This document shows, one piece after another, positions 1,905 to 29,409 of a DNA stretch of 29,722 nt. The notes below the pieces were generated by a model, which made no database searches, was not told the origin of the DNA, and saw only the letters and a list, made by a program, of their open reading frames with translations. Where the stretch lies: IMG/VR virus record IMGVR_UViG_3300036772_000079, positions 1 to 29,722 of that record; one strand, written 5' to 3'. Both the position numbers and the translations under genes were made by a program. Positions within the stretch are counted from its first letter, which is position 1, and each line of letters begins with the position of its first letter. This DNA comes from a virus.

Positions 1905-3059
1905 TTAATCAAGTTCATAACTCACATCATTTAATCTTACCTCAAGCTCAAGCGACGTCGTGAAGCCGCTATTACTGAGAGAGTGCATAACCTTAGTGAT
2001 GGTCCACGCTTGCTCGTCTATCACGCGCTTAAAGCCTGTGACCGTGACCGGTGTTTCCGGGTAGAGATCTGCGCGCCCCATGGCGAGACTAATCGAAAAC
2101 TCCGCCACCCCGCGTTGTAGTTTGTCCCATTTAGCCTGAGCCGCGCGCATCGCCTGCGCTTTGCTGGCGTAAATGGTGGTCAGCGCAAACACATTATCTT
2201 CCTCACCGACCATGTACTCACCCTCGCGTGATTCCTTTTCCTTTGGAGCGGCCCTGGCTTTTACCGGCTGCGCTTTCGGGTGCTGGAGGGCGCGCAGATT
2301 CTGCGGCTTCGCCTTACGCTTGAGTTTGACCTGCTGCTTTTGTTCTTTCGGCTCTCTGGTATGCAGCCATTTCACCGTGACGCCGGTGTACGCGCCCCGG
2401 TCGGCAATCGCAAACTGATGACGGTCACCATCGCGGCGCTCGAGGGTCATCTGTGGAATGGGTTTGCCGCTGGCCGTCACTGCGGCACCCGCTTTCAGGA
2501 ACAGCAATTTCCCCGCCTTGACCGACACCTCCGCCCCGTTGCGTTCCGCCAGCCGGGTGAGAAATTTCGCGTCGGACTCTTGCGACTGGTCAATATGCGG
2601 GATAGCAATCGAGGCAAACAGCGGCGCGACACTGGCCGTCAGCTTGTTACGGCTGGCAATGGTGTTGAGGATTTCACCGAGGGTGGTGTCGTGATACGAC
2701 GTTTCACGACGTGAGTTGAGTGTGCCGCGAAAATCCGCACTGCGCGCCCGGATAGTCAGCGTGTCCGGTGCGCCCCGGTGCTCAATTTCATCCACCGTGA
2801 ATTGTCCTTTACCGAGTAATGCCGAGCCCTGCCAGCCGAGGAACAGCGACAGCACTGCGCCGCGCACCGGCAATTCAATCAGGCCGTCAGTGTCATCGAG
2901 TTCGATATCGAGCTGGTCAGCCTCAAAACCGCGGTTATCTGCGAGGCTGAGACTAATCAACCGCTCACTGATATTGCGGGTGATATCCTGATTATTGAGT
3001 GTCAGCATAAACGCCGGGGCCAGCGTTGCCCCTGCATCCAGTGTCATTCCGGTCAGCAT
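1905..3059 (-). CDS. D: Tail hub protein gpD (late control protein D)
   Basis: 384 aa, near the P2 gpD length. This is the baseplate/tail hub protein of contractile P2-like tails, related to T4 gp27, sitting between tail tube and spike. Family features seen include the start region LTPAFMLTLNNQDIT-like, LTIRARSADF and a C-terminus with VTVTGFKRVID and TTSLELEVRL. A lysine/arginine-rich stretch lies around residues 235-275 (KLKRKAKPQ). Its start codon overlaps the U stop by one base (TAATG), so the two are translationally coupled. Last but one gene of the F-D operon, before ogr. Confidence 0.94.
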   Translation of the reverse strand: MLTGMTLDAGATLAPAFMLTLNNQDITRNISERLISLSLADNRGFEADQLDIELDDTDGLIELPVRGAVLSLFLGWQGSALLGKGQFTVDEIEHRGAPDTLTIRARSADFRGTLNSRRETSYHDTTLGEILNTIASRNKLTASVAPLFASIAIPHIDQSQESDAKFLTRLAERNGAEVSVKAGKLLFLKAGAAVTASGKPIPQMTLERRDGDRHQFAIADRGAYTGVTVKWLHTREPKEQKQQVKLKRKAKPQNLRALQHPKAQPVKARAAPKEKESREGEYMVGEEDNVFALTTIYASKAQAMRAAQAKWDKLQRGVAEFSISLAMGRADLYPETPVTVTGFKRVIDEQAWTITKVMHSLSNSGFTTSLELEVRLNDVSYELD

Positions 3060-3520
3060 TAAAATAACCCTCCGACTTTGCTCTGCACGTTTCCGACCAG
3101 GCTGTCGGCCTGTTTCTGAATATCGCCAAACATCGCCGTCAGGGACTCATCCACGCGCGTGAGGTTGACCGTAAAGTCAATTTTTCGCGCCGAGCCATCG
3201 GCAAAAAACTCGCTGTAGGTCTCGCTCACCGAATTAATCACAAACATGCCGTAAATCGTGCCGCTGCCATCAAGTAGGGGCCAGGCACGCCCCTCATCGG
3301 CCATCAGGTTGAGTGCGAGCAGTGACAACTTCCCGCCGGTGATTTCCGGCAGCAGGCTTCCGGTGAGGGCGATTTTTTCCTCATTAACGCCGAGAAACTG
3401 CATCGCCGGTCGCTGGCCGACGCGACTGTTCGACGGCCAGCGGTAATCCACATCCCGTTGCAGGCTCTGAAAGGGAAGCGTCTGTAACTGAAAAACAAAC
3501 ATGCCGAGGGCAAGCATCAT
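3059..3520 (-). CDS. U: Tail protein gpU
   Basis: 153 aa. P2 gpU is a tail completion or terminator protein needed for tail assembly. The opening (MMLALGMFVF), DYRWPSNSRVG, LTGGKL-like and EGRAWPLLDGSGTIYGM segments are strongly P2 gpU-like. It lies between tape measure T and hub D, the conserved order. A short two-methionine start leaves 3520 or 3517 as alternatives. Confidence 0.94.
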   Translation of the reverse strand: MMLALGMFVFQLQTLPFQSLQRDVDYRWPSNSRVGQRPAMQFLGVNEEKIALTGSLLPEITGGKLSLLALNLMADEGRAWPLLDGSGTIYGMFVINSVSETYSEFFADGSARKIDFTVNLTRVDESLTAMFGDIQKQADSLVGNVQSKVGGLF

Positions 3521-3532
3521 CGTGATTTCTCC

Positions 3533-5968
3533 TTAGTCGTGCATCATGCTGGCGCGCTGTCTGGCACGTTTCTCACGCTCGTATTTTTCCAGACTGTCAC
3601 GGAGCTGGCGGTCAAGCTCACCGCCGTTCTGTACACCACCCCCGATGGCAATGTGATACTCGTTGCGGCTCTGATCCGTATAGCTTTTACCGGCACTCGC
3701 CGTGACCGGCTGATAACTGCCGGTCAGTAACCCACCGGACGGGGAATAGCCGCCACCATTGGCGTATGCATTCACCTTTTCGGCTTTTGCATCAAGCTGG
3801 CCGGACTCCTGATTAATAAGACCGAGCTTTTCCAGCACGTAATCAATCCCGCTGCGCAGTGCGGTGACTGGTGCCAGCGCGAGTTTGAAGGCTCCGGCCA
3901 GCGCCTGACCGACGGCAACGCCGGAATCTTTCCAGGCATCGAGCGTATCTTTGCTGGCTTTCACCGGTGCAATCAGCTCAGTGAACCACTGCCACACCGC
4001 CCGGAGCTTCTGCACCGCCACGTCAAATAGCGGGATAAACGGGGCGAACATCTCCCCGACCGGCGCAAAGGCGGCGCTAATTCCCTCGACCACACCGGAG
4101 AAAAATGTGCCCAGCGGCTCCCAGTATTTACGGATCATCAATGCACCGCCGACGATAAGCGCGCCCACCGCAACAATCGGCCAGGTAAGCGCGCCGAGTA
4201 CCGTCATAATCGCACCACCGGCCACGGTAAACGCGGTGCCGAGCAGACCGGCAGCGGCAATCATGGCATTCACCCCGGCAATCACCGGCCACGCCACCAG
4301 ACCAATAGCGCCGACCATACCCACCACCGCCAGGGCCACGCCGCCAACCTTGAGCAGCGTCTGCGCGAGTCCTTTGTTCTGCACAATCCAGTGGTCAAGT
4401 TTGAGCACATACGTTGTGGCAGTTTGCGTCAGCTTACGGAGCGAGGATTCCTGCTGGTCAAACAGGTCAGTCCCGACCGCCTCATACGCCGACTGAAACT
4501 CTTTGAAGTCGCCGCCGAGGTTATCCTGCATCACCTTGACCAGTTCGGCAGTTTTGCCGTCCGAGGCTTTAAAGGTGGCGGTGAGTTTGTCGAGTTTGCC
4601 GGTCATGGCATCGGTCATCAGCACAGCAGCGGCGGAGCTGGCTTCCTCACCAAAAATGACTTTCATGTACTCGGCGCGCTGTGTGTCACCGAGCTTGTTT
4701 TTCTCAAAGCTGCCCTGCATTTCTTTGAGGATGGTAAACAGCGGGCGCATATTGCCCTTACTGTCTGCATTCCTGACACCCAACTCGCCGAGCGCCGCCT
4801 TCGCCTGGCCGACTGGTGCCTGCAACCGACTGATCACCGCGCGGCTTCCCGTCCCCGCCATTGAGCCGGTGATTTTCGCATCATGCAGCGCACCCGCCAT
4901 CGCGGAAGTTTCTTCGATACTGATCCCGGCGTTTTTCGCCACCGGTGCGACATAGGTGAGTGCATCACTCAGCCCGTTAAAATCGGCAGCGGTTTTGTTC
5001 ATCGTGGTCGACAGCACATCACCAATGTGCGCGACTTTGTCGTTTGACAGCTGGAAAGCCGAGCGCATCCCCATCAGCAACGCGGCGTTTTCTTCCATCG
5101 TGCGCTGGTTAGCAAGCGCCATATTCAGCGTGACCGGTGTCGCGGCCTGAATGGCGGCACTGTCGCCACCGGCTTTGGCGATAATAATCTGCGCACCGGC
5201 GGCGTCATCGGCTGAGGCCGCCGTGTTGTCACCGAGCTGGCGCGCCTGTTTACGCAGGGCGTCCATTTCGGGTGAGGTTTTTTCCACCCCGAGCACCGCC
5301 TGCAACTCAGAATTTTTCTGCGCAAAGTCATAGCCCGGTTTCAGTATGCCCACGCCAGCCGCCACACCGGCGGTTGCCATGCCAACACCGGCGGCACCGA
5401 CCGCGCCCGCTGTTCCGGCCAGCTCCTTACCGGCCTGATAACGGTTTTTTACCGCGTTGAGTTTTGCCTGTTTTACGCTGACCTGCTCCAGTGCCAGCTT
5501 CTGCCGGTTAAGCTGATTCGTGGTTTCACTGATACGGCCTTTCAGGCTCTTTTCATCGCGGGTGAGGTTGCGGGTATTAATCCCGGCCTGCCCGAGTTCA
5601 CGCTGCTGGCGCTTCACCGATTCGGTGAGGCTGTTAACTTTGCTCTGCAATCCGTCTGCCGCTGCCTTTGCCGCCGTCAGCGCTTTCGCCTGTTCGCGCG
5701 TCGGGCGTTCGGTGTTTTTAAACTGCGTGGCAAGCGCTTCGGCTTCGGCCTTTGCTTTCTGCAGTGACTGCCCGGTGACGGCCAGCTGCGCGCTGGTTTT
5801 ACGAAAGCCCTCAATGCGTGATGCCTGGCCGTTTAATTCCTTGAGGGTTTTCTGGGTGTTACGAATATCTCCCGACAGCGTTTTGCTCGCGGTCTGGATG
5901 TGTTTAAACGGGCGCGTCGCCTGGTCAACGGCTTTCAACAGCACTTCGATTCTGACGTTATTACTCAT
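3533..5968 (-). CDS. T: Tail tape measure protein gpT
   Basis: 811 aa, close to P2 gpT. It sets tail length and passes into the cell during DNA entry. Residues 1-180 are predicted coiled coil, rich in Q, K, E and A (TQKTLKELNGQ, LNRQKLALEQVSVK). Residues about 180-215 are a Gly/Ala hydrophobic segment. A tape-measure core domain covers about 225-460 (GMRSAFQLSN, ALHDAKITGSMAGTGSRAVI). Several hydrophobic segments follow at about 540-615. The start overlaps the end of the E' frame, which couples it to the frameshift product. The chaperones encoded just upstream (E and E+E') are expected to coat this protein. Confidence 0.96.
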   Translation of the reverse strand: MSNNVRIEVLLKAVDQATRPFKHIQTASKTLSGDIRNTQKTLKELNGQASRIEGFRKTSAQLAVTGQSLQKAKAEAEALATQFKNTERPTREQAKALTAAKAAADGLQSKVNSLTESVKRQQRELGQAGINTRNLTRDEKSLKGRISETTNQLNRQKLALEQVSVKQAKLNAVKNRYQAGKELAGTAGAVGAAGVGMATAGVAAGVGILKPGYDFAQKNSELQAVLGVEKTSPEMDALRKQARQLGDNTAASADDAAGAQIIIAKAGGDSAAIQAATPVTLNMALANQRTMEENAALLMGMRSAFQLSNDKVAHIGDVLSTTMNKTAADFNGLSDALTYVAPVAKNAGISIEETSAMAGALHDAKITGSMAGTGSRAVISRLQAPVGQAKAALGELGVRNADSKGNMRPLFTILKEMQGSFEKNKLGDTQRAEYMKVIFGEEASSAAAVLMTDAMTGKLDKLTATFKASDGKTAELVKVMQDNLGGDFKEFQSAYEAVGTDLFDQQESSLRKLTQTATTYVLKLDHWIVQNKGLAQTLLKVGGVALAVVGMVGAIGLVAWPVIAGVNAMIAAAGLLGTAFTVAGGAIMTVLGALTWPIVAVGALIVGGALMIRKYWEPLGTFFSGVVEGISAAFAPVGEMFAPFIPLFDVAVQKLRAVWQWFTELIAPVKASKDTLDAWKDSGVAVGQALAGAFKLALAPVTALRSGIDYVLEKLGLINQESGQLDAKAEKVNAYANGGGYSPSGGLLTGSYQPVTASAGKSYTDQSRNEYHIAIGGGVQNGGELDRQLRDSLEKYEREKRARQRASMMHD

Positions 5969-9107: not shown

Positions 9108-11056
9108 TACGCAATACTCCCTATCTGCCGCCAGCCGCCGCTATAGGTTCTCACCACAGTGGCGCGATAATATTTGCCCATACTGCGGCAGTCGCCCATG
9201 TCACCACGGATATTTAACCCGGTCATATAGCAACCTTCCGGGGCTTCCCATATCGTGTCAGTCGTATGCCCGGGGTTCTGGAGAGCCTGCCCTCCGCGAG
9301 CGACGTCCATAACATAGCGGTTATCGGCTATTCCATAAGTGACATAGCCGCTTAAATCCTGCGGGGGCGGCGGGTTGTTCGATGAGTAAACCCGCACACG
9401 ACCACCGGATTCATACACCGCCGTCCCGGCCTGAAGCAGTCCTGAGCACGAAATATTTCTGTCGCTGTATAAATCCCCCACGGCGGTAACCTCACCACTG
9501 GCGCGCACACTGCCTGTGGACGTCATACCGCCCGCCGTAACAGAACCACCGGCAACGACATCTCCCCCGTTATCGCCGAGCGTTACTATCCCTCCGGCCT
9601 GAGTCTGAACAGTGACCCCGCCGCCAGCCTTAAAGATCAGACGGTGGGAATAATCCACGCCGTCTTGTGTGCCGTCAGTGTGAATATCAATATAGAAATT
9701 ACCGGGTGCGCCCCCAAGATGACCTAACTCAAGCGGAGATCCAGACTGAGCGGTGAAAAGGCTGGTGACGTTCTGAAACCGTCGCACGGCATTCACAATG
9801 CCCTCCGCGAGCAAGGGAACGGCACCGGCATCCGCTGCGGTGGGTTTGTGGTTTTCGCCGTAATACTCAGACCACGGCCCCCACGGCCCGTCCTTACCGT
9901 TCCATGTACTCGTGAGTCCCCGCGCAAATTTGCGGTGAGTGGAAAAACTGGTGTACTCCTGCTGGCAGCCATACGCCGACGGCGTGACCAGCAATGTGCC
10001 TGACTGCATAATCGGATAATTCAGCTCTGATTTTGCGTTCGCATCCAGCTCCTGAAAATAAACGCCCCGGTGTGTCTGATGCCCGAGCGTATTCAGGTTC
10101 ACGCTGAGTGCTGCCGGTGCCACCGGGAAGGCGTTCACCATGCGCGGGTCATCACCGGCGGCAACCGTTCCGGCAGTGGTGCCGACATCAAGCAGCGCGG
10201 CACCTTTCAGTCCGAGGTTGTTTCTGGCGACGGCTTTGTCAGGCACATCAGCGAGGTTATTGCCTTTTTGCAGCGCATTGACGATACGCGAGTCATCACC
10301 CGCCGCCACCGTTCCCGCCGTGGTGCCGGTGTCCAGTACGGCAGCACCTTTCAGCCCGAGATTGTCCCGCGCTTTCGCCTTGTCCTGAACGTCTGAAAAG
10401 TTGCTGTTTTTTGCCAGGCGTTTATCCGCATTCTGGTTAGCGGTATCAGCCAGGTCATTAGCCGCTTTGACCGCTTTCGGCGTGGCGGCCAGCGCCTCAC
10501 TGTCGCTGTCTGTCGCGTTACTCAGTTGGGTAAAACCTTTCGCTTCAAGCGTGGCGTCAGGATGACGGCGCGAGCGTTCATGCTCCGTGAGCTTGTCATC
10601 GACATAATCCTGGGTCGCCATCACCGTGGTGGTGTCGATAGTCAGGTCAACCGACTCAATGGCGCTGACCATGATCACCATGCGCACCGTTTGCGCACGC
10701 CCTGAGCCTTCCGCCAGCTCCGGCTTGTAGCTCTCGGCCATATTGGCAATGGCAATCAGTGTGCCGTCAGCATCAAACAGCCCCATTTCACGCATCCAGA
10801 ATCCGCCCACCTCCGGGGGGATCACCAGCTCGGCCACCACGTAATTATTATGTGTTTTGTCCACGCTGATTTTATTCAGGGCCGCGCGCCATTTTTCATT
10901 GATGAGGGTAGTCTGACTGACATCCGGCTGCGGCAGCATACCGCCCCCGTCACCGACAGCTATGTGCGTCAGGGAAATCAGTGTGCCGCCTGCGGTGGCG
11001 GCTGCAAGTTTTGCCGCCCCGGCGGTGGTTAATAACGTTTTATATTTGGTTGTCAT
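9107..11056 (-). CDS. H: Tail fibre protein gpH
   Basis: 649 aa receptor-binding fibre. Residues 1-170 are the conserved baseplate-attachment part (KYKTLLTTAGAAKLAAA, VGGFWMREMGLFD). Residues 170-215 are the phage fibre repeat zone (EAKGFTQLSNATDS). Residues 219-310 contain two copies of a roughly 47-residue unit (NLGLKGAA...GTTAGTVAAGDD). The distal part from 310 is variable and determines host range; its end carries cysteines and RATVVRTYSGGWRQIG. It is the penultimate gene of the V-W-J-I-H-G operon. Confidence 0.95.
   Translation of the reverse strand: MTTKYKTLLTTAGAAKLAAATAGGTLISLTHIAVGDGGGMLPQPDVSQTTLINEKWRAALNKISVDKTHNNYVVAELVIPPEVGGFWMREMGLFDADGTLIAIANMAESYKPELAEGSGRAQTVRMVIMVSAIESVDLTIDTTTVMATQDYVDDKLTEHERSRRHPDATLEAKGFTQLSNATDSDSEALAATPKAVKAANDLADTANQNADKRLAKNSNFSDVQDKAKARDNLGLKGAAVLDTGTTAGTVAAGDDSRIVNALQKGNNLADVPDKAVARNNLGLKGAALLDVGTTAGTVAAGDDPRMVNAFPVAPAALSVNLNTLGHQTHRGVYFQELDANAKSELNYPIMQSGTLLVTPSAYGCQQEYTSFSTHRKFARGLTSTWNGKDGPWGPWSEYYGENHKPTAADAGAVPLLAEGIVNAVRRFQNVTSLFTAQSGSPLELGHLGGAPGNFYIDIHTDGTQDGVDYSHRLIFKAGGGVTVQTQAGGIVTLGDNGGDVVAGGSVTAGGMTSTGSVRASGEVTAVGDLYSDRNISCSGLLQAGTAVYESGGRVRVYSSNNPPPPQDLSGYVTYGIADNRYVMDVARGGQALQNPGHTTDTIWEAPEGCYMTGLNIRGDMGDCRSMGKYYRATVVRTYSGGWRQIGSIA
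10127..10402 (-). repeat. Two tandem ~47-residue repeats inside the tail fibre gene
   Basis: Residues 219-265 and 266-310 of the fibre share DKA.AR.NLGLKGAA.LD.GTTAGTVAAGDD.R.VNA, with the DNA also similar. Repeats like this form shaft segments and are places where fibres recombine or change length. Confidence 0.8.
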
Positions 11057-13680: not shown

Positions 13681-14739
13681 CTACTTCATGGTAATCAGCC
13701 ATGTGCAATTATGGTATTTCTTGCTAGTAGACATCTCCCATGCAGAAGCGTATTGGTCCAATGTGTCTTTTGTAGCCGTAAAGGTCAGTATTTTTATACC
13801 CGTATCGGATTGGAAGTTTTGTTTAATTGTTCTAACAAGTCTACTGTTACTGCAATCTGCGCTATTAGGATACTGCGTACAATACCCAGCTAAACTCTGA
13901 AGTTCTGAACTCAAATTATCTGTATTATCAATAGGTTCTCCTTTGGCCCCACCAAACCCACTAATAATATTACTTATAAATTTAGTATATTTATCTCCAA
14001 AGCAAAACTCTTCTGGAGCTTTTTCGCTTCCTTCGGTTCTCTCCCTGCCTGGCCGATCTTTTCCTTGATTAAATTGAGAAGTATACAACCTAGATAATCT
14101 AAGCTTTATATCTGTCGCTTTGTTTTTATCAAAGGTCACATACGCATCAAATGGCTGACCAAATAAATCCTGTGTATACTTAAAAAAGGTCTTGCCTTTG
14201 TATATTTCCCAAACACCATTAACCTGTAAGTCTTTCTTTAGTGAGCCGACCGGAACATCAAAAATATTACTTTGAGTATCCACGGGGGTAGTATTATTGG
14301 AATCCAACGGTGTAGTAGGGGCTACTTTATCACTAGGCTGAGTTGATGGGGTTGATGGGGTTGATGGGGTTGATGGAGTTGATGGACGGTCCAAAAAAAC
14401 AATCATTGTAGGAAACAGTTTCTGCACACATTGTCTGTAATCTTTGTTGTCACTAGCTTGCTCTTCCCTGAGAACTTGCTGAACACCTTCCCATTCTTTC
14501 TTTGTCATATCTGCTGATACATTTGCACCAACACTGCCTAATAACTTAACACTCAACGAGCCATTTAGATCCGTGTCAGCATGAGCTTCAAGATATTTTC
14601 CCGACTCCCCGGGTTTCTGACATACGTTACTTAAAAACTTAGCCAATTCGTCACTTGTCATAGCGAATGAAAACGGACATATAAATAAAAAACCTATAAA
14701 TACAATGGTTTTAAATGTGTTAACTTTATCAATATCCAT
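13681..14739 (-). CDS. Cargo gene: exported protein of unknown function with (STP)n linker
   Basis: 352 aa. Residues 1-26 are a signal peptide (hydrophobic IVFIGFLFICPFSFA, likely cut after SFA-26), so the product is periplasmic or secreted. Residues 27-118 form a first domain with two cysteines (NVCQKPGESGKY, DYRQCVQKLFP). A low-complexity linker follows (PSTPSTPSTPSTQPS, about 118-155). The C-terminal domain, about 160-352, has CFGDKYTKFI, SLAGYCTQYP and a final CTWLITMK; its cysteines could form disulfides. It starts after an AAGGTG ribosome site. The DNA is clearly AT-richer than the virion genes around it, a sign of separate acquisition. It occupies the S-V junction, which holds the lysogenic conversion gene orf30 in P2. 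I do not recognise the family; superinfection exclusion or virulence are guesses from position and export. Confidence 0.85.
   Translation of the reverse strand: MDIDKVNTFKTIVFIGFLFICPFSFAMTSDELAKFLSNVCQKPGESGKYLEAHADTDLNGSLSVKLLGSVGANVSADMTKKEWEGVQQVLREEQASDNKDYRQCVQKLFPTMIVFLDRPSTPSTPSTPSTPSTQPSDKVAPTTPLDSNNTTPVDTQSNIFDVPVGSLKKDLQVNGVWEIYKGKTFFKYTQDLFGQPFDAYVTFDKNKATDIKLRLSRLYTSQFNQGKDRPGRERTEGSEKAPEEFCFGDKYTKFISNIISGFGGAKGEPIDNTDNLSSELQSLAGYCTQYPNSADCSNSRLVRTIKQNFQSDTGIKILTFTATKDTLDQYASAWEMSTSKKYHNCTWLITMK
14342..14386. repeat. Five tandem 9-bp repeats coding Ser-Thr-Pro
   Basis: Units of GTTGATGGG (three) then GTTGATGGA (two) lie head to tail, encoding Ser-Thr-Pro on the minus strand. Gain or loss of units stays in frame, so it would change linker length without breaking the protein. 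Confidence 0.92.
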
Positions 14740-20782: not shown

Positions 20783-22555
20783 ATGACCATCATCACAGAC
20801 ACCTCCCTGACTCTTGACCCACGTCGACAGGCGTCACTGCTTTACTGGCAGGGATTTTCCGTGCCGCAGATTGCCGAAACGCTCGGCCAGAAACGCCCGA
20901 CGGTGCAGAGCTGGAAGCAGCGCGACGGTTGGGACAATATCGCCCCGATTACGCGCGTCGAAAACAGCCTCGAAGCGCGATTAATTCAGCTCATTACCAA
21001 GACAAAAAAAGACGGTGGCGATTTCAAAGAGATTGACCTGTTAGGCCGACAGATTGAGCGACTGGCGCGGGTGAACCGCTATAACCAGACCGGCAGCGAG
21101 GCCGATTTAAATCCTAACGTGGCGAACCGCAATAAGGGCGAGCGTAAGAAGCCGAAAAAGAACTTTTTCAGCGATGAAGCTATCGAAAAACTGGAGGAGA
21201 TTTTTTTCGCGGAATCCTTCGAATATCAACTCGGCTGGCATCAGGCTGGCCTGCAACACCGTATCCGCAATATCCTCAAATCCCGCCAGATTGGCGCAAC
21301 GTTTTATTTCTCACGCGAGTCGCTCTTACGCGCCCTGAAAACCGGCCATAACCAGATTTTCCTCTCGGCCAGTAAAACGCAGGCGTATGTGTTCCGCGAG
21401 TACATCATCCAGTTTGCACGCCTGGTCGATGTCGACCTGACCGGCGACCCGATTGTCATCGGCAACAACGGGGCAAAACTGATTTTTCTCGGCACCAATT
21501 CCAACACCGCGCAGAGCCATAACGGTGACCTGCTGGTCGATGAGATATTCTGGATCCCCAACTTTCAGAAACTGCGCAAGGTGGCATCGGGCATGGCCTC
21601 ACAACAGCACCTGCGCTCGACGTACTTCTCGACGCCGTCAACGCTGGCGCATGGCGCGTATCCGTTCTGGTCAGGGGAGCTGTTTAACAAAGGGCGCGCC
21701 GATAAAAGCGAGTGTGTGGAGCTGGATATCAGCCACGCGGCGTTAAAAAACGGCGTGGCCTGCGCCGACGGTCAGTGGCGGCAGATTGTCACCATTGAGG
21801 ACGCGCTCAAAGGTGGCTGTGACCTGTTTAATCTGGACACGCTGAAGCGCGAAAACAGCGCCGATGATTTCCGCAATTTATTCATGTGCGAATTTGTCGA
21901 CGATAAAGCCTCTGTGTTTCCGTTCGAGGAGCTGCAACGCTGCATGGTCGACAGTATGGAAGCCTGGGCGGATGACTGGCAGCCGTTCGCCACACGCCCG
22001 TTTGGTTATCATCCGGTATGGATTGGTTACGACCCGTCACACACCGGCGACAGCGCCGGGTGTGTGGTGCTGGCACCACCCGTGGTTGCCGGGGGTAAAT
22101 TCCGCATTCTGGAGCGTCATCAGTGGAAAGGGATGGACTTTGCGACGCAGGCTGAATCCATCAAAAAGCTCACCGAAAAATACCACGTCGAGTACATCGG
22201 TATCGATGCGACCGGCATCGGCCAGGGTGTGTATCAGCTCGTGCGCGCGTTCTATCCGGCAGCGCGGGAAATCCGCTACAGCCCGGAAGTAAAAACCGCG
22301 ATGGTGCTCAAAGCCAAGGACACCATCGGGCGCGGTTGCCTGGAATATGACGTGAGTTATACCGATATCACCGCCTCGTTTATGGCGATACGCAAAACCA
22401 TGACCAGCAGTGGCCGCAGCGCCACCTATGACGCCAGCCGCAGTGAGGAAGCCAGCCACGCCGATGTCGCGTGGGCGACCATGCACGCGCTGCTCAATGA
22501 GCCATTAACCGCCGGTAGCGGTCAGGCATCCACCTCAATTCTGGAGTTCAACTAA
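20783..22555 (+). CDS. P: Terminase large subunit gpP (ATPase/nuclease)
   Basis: 590 aa, the P2 length. The motor that pumps DNA into the head and cuts cos. Residues 15-55 form a helix-turn-helix (YWQGFSVPQIAETLGQKRPT). The ATPase domain has a deviant Walker A (SRQIGATFYFSRES, about residues 167-180) and Walker B in LLVDEIFWI. The RNase H-like nuclease domain shows acidic residues in GYDPSHTGD, GIDATGIGQGVY and HADVAWATM. It diverges from O and overlaps the Q start by one base (TAATG). Confidence 0.96.
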   Translation: MTIITDTSLTLDPRRQASLLYWQGFSVPQIAETLGQKRPTVQSWKQRDGWDNIAPITRVENSLEARLIQLITKTKKDGGDFKEIDLLGRQIERLARVNRYNQTGSEADLNPNVANRNKGERKKPKKNFFSDEAIEKLEEIFFAESFEYQLGWHQAGLQHRIRNILKSRQIGATFYFSRESLLRALKTGHNQIFLSASKTQAYVFREYIIQFARLVDVDLTGDPIVIGNNGAKLIFLGTNSNTAQSHNGDLLVDEIFWIPNFQKLRKVASGMASQQHLRSTYFSTPSTLAHGAYPFWSGELFNKGRADKSECVELDISHAALKNGVACADGQWRQIVTIEDALKGGCDLFNLDTLKRENSADDFRNLFMCEFVDDKASVFPFEELQRCMVDSMEAWADDWQPFATRPFGYHPVWIGYDPSHTGDSAGCVVLAPPVVAGGKFRILERHQWKGMDFATQAESIKKLTEKYHVEYIGIDATGIGQGVYQLVRAFYPAAREIRYSPEVKTAMVLKAKDTIGRGCLEYDVSYTDITASFMAIRKTMTSSGRSATYDASRSEEASHADVAWATMHALLNEPLTAGSGQASTSILEFN

Positions 22556-23580
22556 TGGCGAAGAAACGCAAACAACACGCGGCTAAAAACACCCTCACAG
22601 CACCGGCTGCGGCACCGCAAAAAATGGAAGCTTTCACTTTTGGTGAGCCGTCGCCAGTGCTTGACCGTCGTGACATTCTGGATTACACCGAGTGCGTCGG
22701 TAACGGCAGATGGTTTGAGCCGCCGGTGAGTTTTACCGGGCTGGCGAAAACACTACGCGCCGCCGTGCACCACAGCTCACCGATTTATGTGAAGCGCAAT
22801 ATTCTCGCTTCAACCTTTATCCCGCATCCGCTGCTTTCACAGCAGGATTTCAGCCGCTTTGCGCTGGATTTTCTGGTGTTCGGCAATGCGTTTCTGGAAA
22901 AGCGCATGAGCGTCACCGGCAAGCTGTTACGGCTGGAAACCTCACCGGCCAAATACACCCGCAAAGGCACCGAGGAGGACGCGTACTGGTTTGTACAGTC
23001 GTTTGTCACCCCGCATGAGTTTGCGCCCGGCTCGGTGTTCCACCTACTGGAGCCGGATATCAACCAGGAGTTGTACGGCCTGCCGGAATACCTCAGCGCA
23101 CTCAACTCCGCCTGGCTGAATGAATCGGCAACACTTTTCCGCCGCAAGTATTACCAGAACGGCGCGCACGCGGGTTATATCATGTACGTAACGGATGCCG
23201 CGCAAAGCAGCACCGACGTGGAAGCCTTGCGCGAAGCGATGCGCAGCTCAAAAGGATTAGGGAATTTTAAGAACCTGTTTTTCTACGCGCCGAACGGAAA
23301 ACCTGACGGGATTAAAATTGTGCCGCTCAGTGAAGTGGCGACAAAAGATGATTTCTTTAACATCAAGAAAGCCAGTGCTGAGGACTTAATGAGCGCACAC
23401 CGCGTGCCACCACAAATGATGGGTGTTATTCCTAACAATACCGGCGGGTTCGGTGACGTGGTGAAGGCAGCGCAGGTATTTGTGCGTAACGAGTTGACGC
23501 CGCTGCAGGAGCGAATTAAAGAGGTGAACGAGTGGGTAGGGGAGGAGGTAATAAAGTTTGTAGGCTATAATATGAATTGA
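22555..23580 (+). CDS. Q: Portal protein gpQ
   Basis: 341 aa. Forms the dodecameric DNA entry and exit ring of the head. FTFGEPSPVLDRRDILDYTEC, YVKRNILASTFIPHPLLS, FLVFGNAFLEKR and the C-terminal SAHRVPPQMMGVIPNNTGGFGD are typical of P2 gpQ and the PBSX portal family. It is the last gene before the accessory cassette and cos. Confidence 0.96.
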   Translation: MAKKRKQHAAKNTLTAPAAAPQKMEAFTFGEPSPVLDRRDILDYTECVGNGRWFEPPVSFTGLAKTLRAAVHHSSPIYVKRNILASTFIPHPLLSQQDFSRFALDFLVFGNAFLEKRMSVTGKLLRLETSPAKYTRKGTEEDAYWFVQSFVTPHEFAPGSVFHLLEPDINQELYGLPEYLSALNSAWLNESATLFRRKYYQNGAHAGYIMYVTDAAQSSTDVEALREAMRSSKGLGNFKNLFFYAPNGKPDGIKIVPLSEVATKDDFFNIKKASAEDLMSAHRVPPQMMGVIPNNTGGFGDVVKAAQVFVRNELTPLQERIKEVNEWVGEEVIKFVGYNMN

Positions 23581-23639: not shown

Positions 23640-25295
23640 CTATTTTTCCGGATTTTTTTTCGCGGGAATCCAAATTGTAGGGTTCTCACGACTGAAATCA
23701 AAGGTACCTGCTGGGAAAATTTGTCTTTTATTTTCAACTTTTGATACCAAGTCGTTCTCGCTTAATGTGGAGCCCCACTTAGAAGCATCAGTTCTTATTT
23801 TTTGAAGTTTATTAAGATAGAATGGAGCACAAGGCTCACGCCAGAAACCGCCAGAAGTAGACATCAACTCTAAATGCACGAACAAATCTTCTTTCCATGG
23901 GGCATTTGAAATTAATGCCTCTCTAAGGTGATTGAGTTCTGCAAGCACTGCGCTTGGATGATTTGTTTTTTTAAATTGTTCTACAGCTATCTCGTAGTAA
24001 TTTTTACCTTTTTCAAGCTCGCCATTTTTATAGTGCAACAGACCCAAGTTAGCAAAAGCATGTCCGTAGGTGTCTTTATCTTCTTTTTTAATTACCTCAT
24101 TCACTATATCTAAAGCATGATTGTATGACTCTATAGATATTTCACCACTCTCAAGGTGTTCCTGTGAAATTGAAGAAAAAATAAGGTTAAGACGTAATGT
24201 TTCATCACTTGGGTCTATAAGTAAACCTTTCTTGGAAATCTCCATTGTTTGTTTGTAATCATCTAGCAGAGATGCTACGTAAGAAGCATGAATTGCTGGT
24301 TGCGAGTTGAACGGTTCCTCATCTAACCATTCTTTAGCATAATCGAGTGCTAGTTTCATTTCTTGATTATAATATGCCTCGCGATATTTAGCTTCAAATG
24401 CTCGCTTGTGATTAACTAATGCTTCATGTGGAACTAACCCTTTGATATTACCCTTTCTTTCAGCCCACTTTGCTTGAGCAAAAATATTTCCATTTGGATA
24501 AGCAAGTGAGTGTCCAAAATGATTTTTGGCTTTTTTGATTGAGCCGCTTTTTAATTCAAGGGTGCCTATTGAACTTTGCAGTTCCGATGTGTGGCATTCA
24601 GAGTAACCAAATTTTAATGCTTTTTTAGCGCTGGACCAGTATCTTGAATTACGGCCATAAGAGCTTGAGATCGCTAACTCAGAGGCCAAAAGCCATGGAT
24701 CGGAATTGATGTTTGGATGTCGTATTAAAATATCATGGGAACGCTCGTAGCTCCCTATGTTGAAAAAAAATCGTGACGATACACGAGTTACCCACCGGTT
24801 ATCGTTTGATAGCCCTAATCCAATCAAGATTGATCTCTCTGCTTGGTTTATTTGACCAATGCTCATATACAAACGAGACAAATCAATCCATGACAAACAA
24901 TCATTAGGGTTTTCTTTGAGCCACTTTTTAATCACACTAATTTGTGCTTGAGTGTTTTTTGTTTCTATTGTGTTTTTATTGTTTTCAGAAAGAATATTTT
25001 TACAAAATTCAGTGAGAGTAACTGGGACTACCTTTTTACTTTCGATGATAAAAGATGCGGCTTGCTGTGCTTTTTCAATATCACTTTCAGTATAGGATAA
25101 GCTAAGTATTTCGAGTGCTAATTCAAATGTTGGACGTTCGATAAAACTTGCATGTAATACTTCTAAACTAGAAGGGTTGTAATTCATCGTTTTATTTTTA
25201 ACGAGTGAACGTAATTCTGCGGAGTAAATAGCTTCGTCCGACTTAAACCAAGCAGGAGCAAGCACTCTATTATCATCAGATTTTAATATGCTCAT
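23640..25295 (-). CDS. TPR-repeat protein, second gene of the kinase cassette
   Basis: 551 aa, all-helical, no signal peptide or membrane segment, so cytoplasmic. TPR-like helix pairs can be seen at about residues 118-163 (NPNDCLSWIDLSRLYMSIG, INQAERSILIGLGL), 165-200, 237-268 (LELKSGSIKKAKNHF), 313-362 (ALDYAKEWLDEEP, QTMEISKKGLLIDPSD) and 408-447 (FANLGLLHYKNGELEKGKNYY). The C-terminal 90 residues are not TPR (GGFWREPCAPF, IFPAGTFDFSREN). The start overlaps the kinase stop (ATGA), so the two are coupled and probably act together. The DNA is AT-rich, unlike P and Q. TPRs bind other proteins; substrate-holding or sensing for the kinase is an inference. Confidence 0.88.
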   Translation of the reverse strand: MSILKSDDNRVLAPAWFKSDEAIYSAELRSLVKNKTMNYNPSSLEVLHASFIERPTFELALEILSLSYTESDIEKAQQAASFIIESKKVVPVTLTEFCKNILSENNKNTIETKNTQAQISVIKKWLKENPNDCLSWIDLSRLYMSIGQINQAERSILIGLGLSNDNRWVTRVSSRFFFNIGSYERSHDILIRHPNINSDPWLLASELAISSSYGRNSRYWSSAKKALKFGYSECHTSELQSSIGTLELKSGSIKKAKNHFGHSLAYPNGNIFAQAKWAERKGNIKGLVPHEALVNHKRAFEAKYREAYYNQEMKLALDYAKEWLDEEPFNSQPAIHASYVASLLDDYKQTMEISKKGLLIDPSDETLRLNLIFSSISQEHLESGEISIESYNHALDIVNEVIKKEDKDTYGHAFANLGLLHYKNGELEKGKNYYEIAVEQFKKTNHPSAVLAELNHLREALISNAPWKEDLFVHLELMSTSGGFWREPCAPFYLNKLQKIRTDASKWGSTLSENDLVSKVENKRQIFPAGTFDFSRENPTIWIPAKKNPEK

Positions 25296-26401
25296 GCAAC
25301 TCTCTCTTTAGTATTGCTTTTTATTTTCACTTGTTTGGTAAGGTAATCGAACTCACTTATAAGTCTATCAATCCCTAGTACTGGATTTCTCATTCCGATA
25401 GTTTTAATCATGCCTCTTTTTTCATAATTTGGGTGGCTACATTTTATTACGATTTGTTTAAGGCGTGAACTTAACCATTTAGGTTCTAAATTGTCAAAGT
25501 TGGTAACTAATTCATTGAATGCATGTTCAAGGTGATGTAAAGATTGCGAATAGGAATCACCTTGACCACCCCAAAGTACAGGTGCTATTTCTAGAGGTAA
25601 CTTTTCTTTTAGGAGGCCATTAATAGTCATACCTAAAAAGAGAAATGACACAATTGATCCCAATTGATATAAATCGCATCTTTCTCTGCGATCTATCCAT
25701 TCATTCGGAACATAGCCATATAACTGCTCTGGTGGTGCATATCCTCTATCACCAGCTATATCGATAGAATCATGCCAATGAGGCTGTCCTTGCAAACTAG
25801 CGCGACCTAAATCACCTATTTTGGCTCCAAGGTCAGAAAATATCATGACATTAGAAGGTTTAAGGTCTTGGTGAGAAATCTTTGCACTATGTAACTGATT
25901 CAACCCAATTGCTACATCTTTTAAATACTCAAGCTTTGCAGTTAAAGTAATTTCTTGGGTTATTTCAACGTACTTTCGAATATCACCACTATCTGCAAGT
26001 TCCATTATTAAATACGGAACCACATTCATGAAATTGTTATCTAAAACTACTTGACCACGATCTAAAACCTTTACTATTTTGCGGAAACGTTTTGATAAGC
26101 AAATTTCATTTAATTTATTTTCAAATTGATAATTAGAGGTTAAACCCGCAAGTTCACCCATAACATCCTTTTTCTCAGCTACTGATTGCATCAAAGTTTG
26201 ATGAAAATCAAAAGCTTTTAAAAAAGCTTTTGTTTTTTTATCAACACTTTCAACTTCATAAGATACCGAGAAATGACCACCTGTCCCATTTCCACCGGCT
26301 TGAACCCCCACTAATATACGCTCTCCAACTACCCAATTATTGTTTAGTAATTCTCCTGAAAGACGTTTTGCAGGGCTTACTGGTTGTTCAGGTTCAGACA
26401 T
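25292..26401 (-). CDS. Hanks-type Ser/Thr protein kinase, first gene of a candidate defence cassette
   Basis: 369 aa. The kinase domain covers about 24-345 and looks active: a glycine-rich loop (AGGNGTGGHFSV, 35-46), catalytic lysine K62 (AFLKAFD), catalytic loop H177-Q178-D179-L180-K181-P182-S183-N184, magnesium-binding D197 in a DLG variant of DFG, an APPE motif at 222-225, and DLYQLG at 243-248. No transmembrane segment or PASTA repeats, unlike housekeeping PknB-type kinases. Start 26401 follows GGGAG seven bases upstream. It is AT-rich and coupled to the TPR gene. The slot between portal gene Q and replication gene A is a known hot spot for anti-phage systems in P2-like prophages, and some phage-defence systems use Ser/Thr kinases. 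The defence role is inferred, not shown. Confidence 0.9.
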   Translation of the reverse strand: MSEPEQPVSPAKRLSGELLNNNWVVGERILVGVQAGGNGTGGHFSVSYEVESVDKKTKAFLKAFDFHQTLMQSVAEKKDVMGELAGLTSNYQFENKLNEICLSKRFRKIVKVLDRGQVVLDNNFMNVVPYLIMELADSGDIRKYVEITQEITLTAKLEYLKDVAIGLNQLHSAKISHQDLKPSNVMIFSDLGAKIGDLGRASLQGQPHWHDSIDIAGDRGYAPPEQLYGYVPNEWIDRRERCDLYQLGSIVSFLFLGMTINGLLKEKLPLEIAPVLWGGQGDSYSQSLHHLEHAFNELVTNFDNLEPKWLSSRLKQIVIKCSHPNYEKRGMIKTIGMRNPVLGIDRLISEFDYLTKQVKIKSNTKERVA

Positions 26402-26545
26402 GAAGTTCTCCCACTAAAATGGTTTAATAAAGAATTATTAACATAATTATTTGGCGTAGTAGAGCGTGAGTGGTTGCTAAGATAGTACATTATTGATTTT
26501 GAATAAAGTAGCCTGTAGGTATCGTAAGCGGAGATTCTGCGCGCA

Positions 26546-26564
26546 ATGCTATCCCCGCCACGCC
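26546..26564 (-). other. cos: cosN, cohesive-end site of the phage genome
   Basis: The minus strand reads GGCGTGGCGGGGATAGCAT. It differs at one base from the 19-nt cohesive end of phage 186 as I recall it, and is also close to that of P2 (GGCGAGGCGGGGAAAGCAC). It lies between Q and A, its place in P2 and 186. Cutting by gpP/gpM puts the kinase-TPR cassette at the left end of the virion DNA and the tum-like gene at the right end. Confidence 0.85.
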
Positions 26565-26610
26565 TGCGCGCTTCATGGGTCGGTTTTAATGCAGGTGCAA
26601 CAGAGACAGC

Positions 26611-26637
26611 AAAGCCCGCCAGAGCTGGCAGGCTTTG
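26611..26637 (-). terminator. Hairpin after the tum-like gene
   Basis: AAAGCC-C-GCCA, loop GAGC, TGGC-A-GGCTTT forms a stable stem between the tum-like stop (26728) and cos. The T-run after it on the minus strand is short (CTTTGC), so it may be a partial terminator or a packaging-related structure. Confidence 0.5.
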
Positions 26638-26727
26638 ATAAAAACGATCCATTTACGATCATGCGATTCCATGCACTATATGCATGCACGCGTTTTAGCG
26701 CGTTAAATGGGGTTTTCTGCAGAAAAA

Positions 26728-26913
26728 TCACTTCGCTTCGTAGTAAACATCATCACTTTCCTGATTCTCATTTTCACTGTTCGCCAGGTCTGCAATCAGC
26801 GAAAGCGCCAGCTTTAAATCTGATGGTTTGCAATTCGCAATCAGTGATACCTCAGCGATAAATTGCACACAGGCCCACTTATGTTGGGCGCGGCTGGTCT
26901 CTTCCATCAGCAT
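26728..26913 (-). CDS. SOS-regulated small protein in the 186 tum position
   Basis: 61 aa, no signal peptide; helical, with cysteines (KWACVQFIAEVSLIANCKPSD) and an acidic tail (ENENQESDDVYYEAK). A LexA box lies 20 bp upstream, and the start has a strong GAGAGGA ribosome site. In phage 186 the LexA-repressed promoter p95 lies at this place, between A and cos, and drives tum, whose product inactivates the CI repressor during prophage induction. Sequence alone does not let me claim homology with Tum (or the neighbouring orf97), so the role is inferred from position and control. A DinI-type function was considered but the DinI motifs are absent. Confidence 0.72.
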   Translation of the reverse strand: MLMEETSRAQHKWACVQFIAEVSLIANCKPSDLKLALSLIADLANSENENQESDDVYYEAK

Positions 26914-27027: not shown

Positions 27028-29409
27028 TTATTCTTGCCTGAAAGTTGCGCAAATTCGCTGCCTCGTTTTATCGGTTCCGAAAAGGCGCTCCCACGCGGCA
27101 CGGTCAGCCTTCTTTAGCATCTCCGCATACTGGCCGAATGGATCATGAACAACCTTGTGTGTATCAACGTTGTGCATTTTTTCCATGCCTTTCCAAAGCT
27201 TTTTAACTCTCGATACCGTGGTGTCTGGTTTCGTAGCGATTAAATCGCCATTAGCTGTGCCTCGATACCAATTGCCATCGATAGACATTTTACTGCCAGC
27301 GATAAGATGCAGAGCTGTACCACGGTTTATGGTTTCACCAGTTTGTTCCTTCGCGTTCTCAATGAGCAAGTTCACCGCCTTATCGTTAGAAACATCGGGG
27401 TAGGGTGATGAATGCAGCCGTTTTGGCTTCTTCACTGTTATTCGTTCCGCTAATTTTCGTCTGGCCGACCGGCTCAGAGGTTTACTTAGGTCAATTTCAG
27501 ACGAAGAAGGGGGAGCTTCAAAATCCTTCCCCGTACAGTTATTGACAGAACTCCGAGAGGGCGAAGGATCGCCCTTAAGGTCAACGTCCAAATCAAGGGC
27601 GAGTTTCGGTACAATTTTCCACTGTATGAGCCGGGTTAAAATCGGTGTGTCGCTGCCGACGGTCGTATCAAAGACACCTTTAATTCGCAGACATTCCTCA
27701 CCGTATTCATTGAGGGTTTCGGTAGGTTCATACCAGGTGCGCACCTGTAACTCATCACGGCGTACAAACGGCCCACCCTGCGCGTTAACGTATTCCGCCC
27801 AATGACCGCCATCAGCAGCATCATGTACGGCGGCAAATTCAACGCTGAGTGCATGAGCAGTTTCGGTATCAGCCATTTTTCGCAGTTCACGATAAACCGT
27901 TACCGGCGCACCGCCTACAAACTGAAACTGACGGATACGCCAGCGAGCCGCCCAGGCAGCAACAGCCGGAGCCGTTTCTTTTAACAGCTCACCGCTTTCG
28001 TCATCACGTTCACCGTCCAGCGCAAAACCATCAATATTTTTACTGATGTATTTCGCCACATAGCCGGTGGCGCTGCCTTTTTCAGGGTCGATAGCTTCAG
28101 CATGAAAGCGAGCCTTACGGGCTTTATCACTCACCAGCTCGGCGGCATCTTCCTGATGTGCATATTTCAGCATTACAGCACGCACACGAGAGACATCCTC
28201 GGGGCGCATGAATATCAGCATGTGCCAGTGGGGTGTGCCATCGTGATGAGGCTCTGCAACACGGATACCAAAAATACGCAATTCAGCGCGGTGCAGTTTG
28301 GCGCGAATGCGCGACCAGACTGAGGTTAAATAACTTTGTGTATCTGCGGGGCTGGCACCGTTCCACTTACTGTTGCGGTAACCTGCTTTCGTTGTGGCAT
28401 GGTATTTCGACGGTGCGGTGATGGTGTAAAACTCACCCACATAACCCAGCTCATTTGATATCTTTTCAAAACCGCTAATGCGGGTCATCAACTCACCACG
28501 ACGAATTGGTGGATTAGCCACACTGCCATCGTATTTATCAATCAGGCTGATGCGGTTGCCATCATCATCAATGAGATCCATTCCTTTGAGAAATTCACGG
28601 GTGCGCCGTCTTTGTTCACGCCATTCAGCAACGCATGATTTACTGGCATATGGGGTGTGCTTTTTACTGACATTGCCCAGGGCTATTTGCAGGTGTTCGC
28701 GCCATTCAGAAGCGACCCGGCGCAAGCGGCCACGCCACCATTTTTCATTGACCATGCGCAGTACGGCAGGGCCAATATCATCAAGCGAAACTAATTTAGT
28801 GGTGACGCGCTCCCACAAAGGGGGCTGACACCTGAAATGACGGGCAATCTGTGCCGCACGCATATAAATCGCATACATCACTTTTAACCTACCGACATCG
28901 CCCTCGATAGTCCCGATCTCGCCGTTAATGTAATTCGCAATATCAGCAGCCAGCAGTTCAATGTCGGCTTTGGACATATCCTGCAGGCGGTTATATCGGT
29001 CGGTCAGGCTAACCAGTTTTGAGGCAAGAAAACGGATGTCCGGCGCATCAAAACGACCGCCAAATAATTGCTGTGAAAGATGGCTGTCGATGCCGGTGAT
29101 TTGATAAATACCGGCGACCAGCTCAAGCCGTGGCAATGCCCGCCTGACAAATGTCACAAGATGAGCATTGGCTCGTTGAGCTCCGAAAGTACGTTCTAAA
29201 TAATCCACCCGTCGGTTGATATCAAATCGCACACAATCAGGTTGTTTCGCCAGTTCACTGCGCGCACGCAGCAACGCCGCAATCTCTCGATCACGGCGAT
29301 GCTGCTGTTCATAGGTCAGATATGGACTTGGAATAGCCTGAAGAGGTAAATTCCACCAGTATGTACAGCTATCAGATACTTCTTTTGTTGGGATATTTAC
29401 CATACTCAT
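27028..29409 (-). CDS. A: Rolling-circle replication initiator gpA
   Basis: 793 aa; nicks the phage origin and stays covalently bound to the 5' end to start rolling-circle replication. The HUH metal-binding motif is HWH at 394-396 (PHWHMLIF). The paired active-site tyrosines are Y450 and Y454 (GYVAKYISKNIDG), the same numbers as in P2 gpA. In P2 the origin lies inside gene A. The N-terminal 300 residues are rich in basic helices. The first ATG (29409) and the third codon (29403) are both possible starts; neither has a good Shine-Dalgarno, and no gene is tightly coupled upstream. Part of the early operon, read leftward towards the tum-like gene and cos. Confidence 0.95.
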   Translation of the reverse strand: MSMVNIPTKEVSDSCTYWWNLPLQAIPSPYLTYEQQHRRDREIAALLRARSELAKQPDCVRFDINRRVDYLERTFGAQRANAHLVTFVRRALPRLELVAGIYQITGIDSHLSQQLFGGRFDAPDIRFLASKLVSLTDRYNRLQDMSKADIELLAADIANYINGEIGTIEGDVGRLKVMYAIYMRAAQIARHFRCQPPLWERVTTKLVSLDDIGPAVLRMVNEKWWRGRLRRVASEWREHLQIALGNVSKKHTPYASKSCVAEWREQRRRTREFLKGMDLIDDDGNRISLIDKYDGSVANPPIRRGELMTRISGFEKISNELGYVGEFYTITAPSKYHATTKAGYRNSKWNGASPADTQSYLTSVWSRIRAKLHRAELRIFGIRVAEPHHDGTPHWHMLIFMRPEDVSRVRAVMLKYAHQEDAAELVSDKARKARFHAEAIDPEKGSATGYVAKYISKNIDGFALDGERDDESGELLKETAPAVAAWAARWRIRQFQFVGGAPVTVYRELRKMADTETAHALSVEFAAVHDAADGGHWAEYVNAQGGPFVRRDELQVRTWYEPTETLNEYGEECLRIKGVFDTTVGSDTPILTRLIQWKIVPKLALDLDVDLKGDPSPSRSSVNNCTGKDFEAPPSSSEIDLSKPLSRSARRKLAERITVKKPKRLHSSPYPDVSNDKAVNLLIENAKEQTGETINRGTALHLIAGSKMSIDGNWYRGTANGDLIATKPDTTVSRVKKLWKGMEKMHNVDTHKVVHDPFGQYAEMLKKADRAAWERLFGTDKTRQRICATFRQE

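Follow-up and report, generated by a model that had tools for sequence, protein, structure and literature searches.

A kinase–TPR gene pair beside cos in a P2-like prophage belongs to the catalogued candidate defence family PDC-M71

What is the role of a protein kinase gene and an overlapping gene for a TPR protein that lie together between the portal gene and the cos region of a P2-like prophage? The question is raised by the window analyzed here, the whole 29,722-nucleotide stretch of IMG/VR virus record IMGVR_UViG_3300036772_000079. Few kinase-based systems of phage defence are known, and a first-pass annotation made from the sequence took the pair for a candidate anti-phage system that had not been described. 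The part of that claim concerning defence is well supported by context, whereas the pair is not undescribed, being catalogued as PDC-M71. The view that the A–Q interval is an antiviral hotspot has experimental support as well: the P2 A–Q and P4 slots are hotspots with many validated defence systems (PMC9122126, PMC9519451).

The window covers a P2-like prophage region with an integrase gene (403–1440), tail and head genes and a terminase gene (20783–22555), and the structural genes share about 77% identity with those of P2 and of Klebsiella P2-like phages. The terminase gene is followed by portal gene Q, the kinase–TPR cassette and gpA (Table 1). The position of the pair between Q and cos, as originally read, is upheld by a cos-like core that was found with the P2 cos core as the search pattern; it is located 145 bases upstream from where the kinase gene starts, so that the cassette sits on the Q side of cos. 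The cassette is AT-rich, with a GC content of 0.356 in the kinase gene and 0.368 in the TPR gene versus 0.534 in Q and 0.50 in gpA. In Klebsiella phage ST147-VIM1phi7.1 and in P2_AC1, the cos core near Q matches the P2 core exactly, and in the former the A–cos interval (positions 906–2334 of the segment examined, L037) is filled by an HTH gene and a retron-like reverse transcriptase gene, so that its cargo is on the A side of cos whereas that of the window is on the Q side.

Table 1. Features of the kinase–TPR cassette and of the slot that holds it (window coordinates)
Feature	Position	Strand	Evidence
Portal gene Q; convergent with the cassette, slot boundary	22555..23580	+	phrog_68 1.9e-170
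TPR-solenoid protein gene, 551 aa, PDC-M71B; sensor/regulator candidate	23640..25295	-	PADLOC PDLC04781 2.1e-99
R10-x3-P14-x-W16, N-terminal motif of the TPR protein	25248..25268	-	invariant in 15 aligned loci
ATGA overlap of the kinase and TPR genes, 4 bases; translational coupling	25292..25295	-	sequence
Hanks-type protein kinase gene, 369 aa, PDC-M71A; candidate effector	25292..26401	-	PADLOC PDLC04780 2.4e-100; Pfam PF00069
GDRGYAPPE, activation-segment motif, kinase residues 217-225	25727..25753	-	translation and alignment
cos-like core GGCGTGGCGGGGATAGCAT	26546..26564	-	16/19 match to P2 cos core (3 mismatches); chance 0.01
61-aa phage ORF between A and cos, outside the cassette	26728..26913	-	phrog_1993 3.3e-30
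Replication endonuclease gene A (gpA), opposite slot boundary	27028..29409	-	PF05840 2.3e-122; phrog_91 5e-263

Catalogue identity, relatives and mobile settings

The identity of the pair emerged from profile searches of both proteins, which the first-pass annotation had proposed. Against PADLOC-DB v2.0.0, the kinase matches PDC-M71A (PDLC04780) over residues 8–362 of 369 and profile positions 6–349 of 352, and the TPR protein matches PDC-M71B (PDLC04781) over residues 1–479 and profile positions 1–490 of 515; all 12 homologue pairs scanned match both as well. PDC-M71A and PDC-M71B are two sets of models that form one catalogued candidate defence system, representing, at near full length, the same two proteins as the window pair, with nothing found to distinguish them. 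The earlier statement that no described system consists of exactly this pair thus has to be withdrawn: the window pair adds a rare member, one from an enterobacterial prophage, to the candidate family already catalogued as PDC-M71, and is not a new type of system. The catalogue entry is itself a prediction, PDC denoting a phage defence candidate obtained by the embedding approach of Payne et al. 2024 (bioRxiv 10.1101/2024.01.29.577857), according to the passages that refer to it in PMC12988326 and PMC13356809. The full-text literature, in a coverage that leaves out preprints and most subscription papers, yielded no paper in which PDC-M71 is named or subjected to an experiment, or in which a kinase–TPR anti-phage pair is described, and the system, though catalogued as a candidate, is perhaps undescribed at the experimental level.

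Including the window, 16 distinct loci were collected, 15 of which were aligned. Among the relatives of the window pair, with percentages of identity given for kinase and TPR protein, respectively, are those of Trabulsiella (L002; 79 and 58%), a P2-like prophage (L018; 72 and 53%), an Enterobacteriaceae element (L026; 57 and 41%), a P4-like satellite (L019; 55 and 37%) and E. coli (L033; 55 and 36%). Further loci are present on phage-type contigs (L022, L025, L029), on IMG/VR contigs (L023, L024), on plasmids of Deinococcus (L003), Rhizobium (L004) and Arthrobacter (L005), in a gammaproteobacterium (L032) and in a member of the Enterobacterales (L040). Neither megablast of the cassette against 5,426 E. 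coli genomes nor tblastn against INPHARED phages returned a full-length relative, a single-sequence scan of IMG/VR came up empty, and it took distant blastn together with profile-derived patterns to reach such loci. The family is rare and patchy: genomes with clear matches number 2 among 392 in the Trabulsiella family, 2 among 395 in the order, 2 among 369 in the class and 1 among 398 in the phylum, each count including the centre genome, and 13 among the 5,426 complete genomes of E. coli, with near-identical strains making up several of the 13. A set of weak Enterobacteriaceae matches to the TPR protein (L008–L017; E about 1e-3 to 1e-6) was dropped, as these appear to be ordinary TPR proteins with no family kinase in the DNA examined.

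Homologues found solely in non-mobile metabolic contexts would, as had been pointed out at the outset, speak against a defence role. All 16 loci lie in mobile settings, comprising prophages, a satellite, other phages, plasmids and integrative elements. Because collections of viruses or plasmids supplied 11 of the 16 and so inflate the share of mobile settings, it matters that the five chromosomal loci (L002, L026, L032, L033, L040) all adjoin an integrase or relaxase gene. The layout of the window is repeated in the P2-like prophage L018, where gpA, an identical cos core upstream of the pair, the kinase and TPR genes and, on the opposite strand, the portal gene follow each other. The P4-like satellite carries a D5-type primase gene, psu, a similar cos core at the psu end, the kinase and TPR genes and an integrase gene; its kinase shares 90% and its TPR protein 79% identity with their counterparts in E. 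coli mobilisable elements, which shows transfer between types of element. The portal gene of L018 is split into two overlapping frames (9722–10731) next to an intact kinase–TPR pair, so that this prophage may be defective.

PADLOC identified a retron type VI reverse transcriptase, the Abi reverse transcriptase AbiP2, ThsB-like TIR proteins, SIR2, an Avs4-like protein and PDC-S02 as neighbours of the pair, the first four beside it in E. coli elements and the Avs4-like protein near it on the IMG/VR contig L024. No metabolic neighbour recurs, defence genes often adjoin, and the enrichment of the pair near defence genes is a qualitative observation. In E. coli EC0026B (L036), a mobilisable element with a MobQ relaxase holds a type VI retron-like reverse transcriptase, a ThsB-like TIR protein, AbiP2 and the kinase–TPR pair (2733–5838 and 21610–23154), forming a compact defence island within about 21 kb.

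Two coupled genes and their products

Both genes are present at all 16 loci, always in the order kinase first, and their spacing, measured at 15 loci, lies between -8 and +10 bases throughout; the 4-base overlap of the window recurs in the Trabulsiella, Deinococcus and Arthrobacter loci, in the P4-like satellite and in L024. Nearly all of the 16 loci have intact homologues and, with synonymous sites mostly saturated, the two usable estimates of dN/dS are 0.095 for the kinase and 0.123 for the TPR protein, which together indicate that both open frames are real genes. Kinase and TPR protein have diverged in parallel (r = 0.94, reached in 0 of 2000 permutations with the 15 aligned loci), a mirror-tree correlation that follows from co-inheritance and is no proof of binding. 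In 99 of 105 comparisons it is the TPR protein that has diverged further, as is expected of any scaffold as well. The kinase and TPR trees have 7 of 12 splits in common, and at the Rhizobium locus they contain two conflicting pairings, each with support >0.9, so that partners may have been exchanged between loci long ago. In E. coli 0H26 an IS5 element is inserted between the kinase and TPR genes (L034, 12683–13663), which probably breaks the module.

The description of the first protein as a soluble Hanks kinase with its catalytic residues in place proved accurate. It matches Pfam Pkinase at 7e-19, no membrane-like segment was found in it or in the TPR protein, and its AlphaFold model (mean pLDDT 84) adopts the protein-kinase fold, with PknB and Aurora A as the nearest solved folds. 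The active-site set of Hanks-type kinases, that is, the β3 lysine, the αC glutamate and the HxDxKxxN and DxG motifs, is complete, and residues K62, E94, H177, D179, K181, N184, D197 and G199 are invariant in all 15 aligned loci. The canonical RD (HRD) catalytic loop is absent: the catalytic aspartate is preceded by glutamine or asparagine in every aligned sequence (HQD/HND), and the aligned kinases are therefore of the non-RD type, which does not preclude kinase activity. Non-RD kinases are usually not activated by phosphorylation of the activation loop, which would make control by the TPR partner an attractive possibility.

The assignment of the second protein to the TPR class stands on weak Pfam TPR matches and on an AlphaFold model (mean pLDDT 80) that is an all-helical solenoid of the TPR type. 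Residues 1–20, with a mean pLDDT below 50, and the C-terminal tail are predicted to be disordered. The conservation of the R-x3-P-x-W motif inside this N-terminal disordered segment suggests that something binds there, the kinase being one possibility. In the PDB, the folds matching the TPR protein (OGT, APC/C, IFIT1) are generic solenoids with low TM-scores and were not used for function.

Proposed role of the pair

Defence is the best-supported role, which we infer strongly from context: the cos-proximal hotspots of P2 and P4, the mobile elements that surround the pair everywhere and its defence-rich neighbours all point in this direction. We thus regard it as probable that the pair is an anti-phage module of the PDC-M71 type carried as prophage cargo. 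Most likely it acts by abortive infection through two components, a TPR protein that senses or restrains and a kinase that is the effector, with the exact order of events being proposed tentatively. The kinase and the TPR protein would form a complex in which the latter holds or positions the former; the faster-evolving TPR protein would bind a phage product, or register the loss of a host product, and this event would release or target the kinase, which could then phosphorylate host or phage proteins and so stop the infection. The cell would probably be sacrificed, and the host population of the prophage protected against competing phages. A more specific proposal, that the pair represents a distinct class of phage sensing in bacteria, with a TPR receptor that reads infection directly and controls a non-RD kinase to which an R-x3-P-x-W docking motif links it, and that this system passes back and forth between cos-proximal slots in helper phages and in their satellites, is rather doubtful.

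To our knowledge, PD-T4-6 is a single-protein system with no TPR partner, and we know of none in the described Stk2 system. The window kinase has in common with PD-T4-6 the use of a Hanks-type kinase domain in phage defence but differs in not being encoded by a single gene, as the TPR gene is adjacent at 16 of 16 loci. In PADLOC, its matches to the defence kinases PD-T4-6, mad6 and Stk2 are weaker than that to PDC-M71A and limited to the catalytic core, with PD-T4-6 models covering about residues 104–260 and reaching 3.8e-19 at best, over residues 108–250 only (67 bits versus 334 for PDC-M71A), and Stk2 4e-11 over residues 109–257 only. Stk2 of Staphylococcus protects against phages (Depardieu 2016, as referred to in PMC9122126 and PMC9519451), and the systems of the P2 A–Q hotspot (tin, old, a retron-like reverse transcriptase and others) occupy the same interval as the pair with unrelated proteins (same sources).

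The coupling of two genes, one of them encoding a potentially harmful kinase, and the presence of the pair on plasmids and integrative elements besides phages are also what would be expected of a toxin–antitoxin-like pair that stabilizes its element, the kinase being a toxin that inhibits growth and the TPR protein the antitoxin, with protection against phages secondary or absent. HipA-type kinases work in this manner. A HipA-like kinase is part of the two-gene defence pair DS-6 (PMC13092281), which resembles the window pair in its composition of a kinase and a partner but belongs to the HipA family and has a DUF3037/DUF1829 partner with no TPR. Pfam places the window pair outside the HipBA type, assigning Pkinase and TPR with neither HipA nor HTH; its partner protein is a large, fast-diverging TPR solenoid with no DNA-binding match, unlike typical small antitoxins, and the pair occupies defence slots of phages and a satellite and adjoins defence genes. 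For these reasons, we consider element stabilization improbable as the primary role.

The position of the pair beside cos in P2-like prophages and a P4-like satellite alike would fit a regulatory module whose kinase phosphorylates phage or host regulators in lysogeny, induction or the interplay of helper and satellite, with no bearing on outside phages, but the pair is also found on the plasmids of Deinococcus, Rhizobium and Arthrobacter and on mobilisable elements in which no P2 genes are evident, and related phages lack it, which makes such a role very unlikely. Slightly less likely still is a lysogenic-conversion or stress function of benefit to the host and unrelated to phages: AT-rich cargo of foreign origin and generic kinase and TPR domains would be compatible with it, yet the pair is rare, patchy and mobile in every locus, with no recurrent metabolic neighbour and often with defence genes at its side. 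The pair is a compact example of a kinase-based system, in which a single kinase and a single candidate receptor have been kept as one unit from Enterobacteria to Deinococcus and recur beside cos in P2-like phages and a P4-like satellite. The results lower the novelty of the pair and strengthen its biology, that of an intact, mobile two-gene module in cos-proximal slots.

Other features of the prophage

An ORF of 91 aa (26377–26652, minus strand) overlaps the kinase start and crosses cos, and was judged non-coding by its position. A promoter scan returned 9 sites versus 10.5 expected, i.e., not above chance, and none of them is put forward as a promoter; a scan for tRNA genes was negative. The host sRNA genes RyeA/SraC and SdsR/RyeB lie at 169–314, flanking the integrase end, so that the prophage is probably inserted beside the sdsR locus. 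A second AT-rich cargo ORF (13681–14739, minus strand; GC 0.38), located between gpV-like and gpS-like genes, encodes 352 aa with a signal-peptide-like start and PST repeats and has no significant match in Pfam, NCBIfam or PADLOC. In P2_AC1, the same interval between the gpV-like and gpS-like genes is likewise occupied by a gene on the opposite strand.
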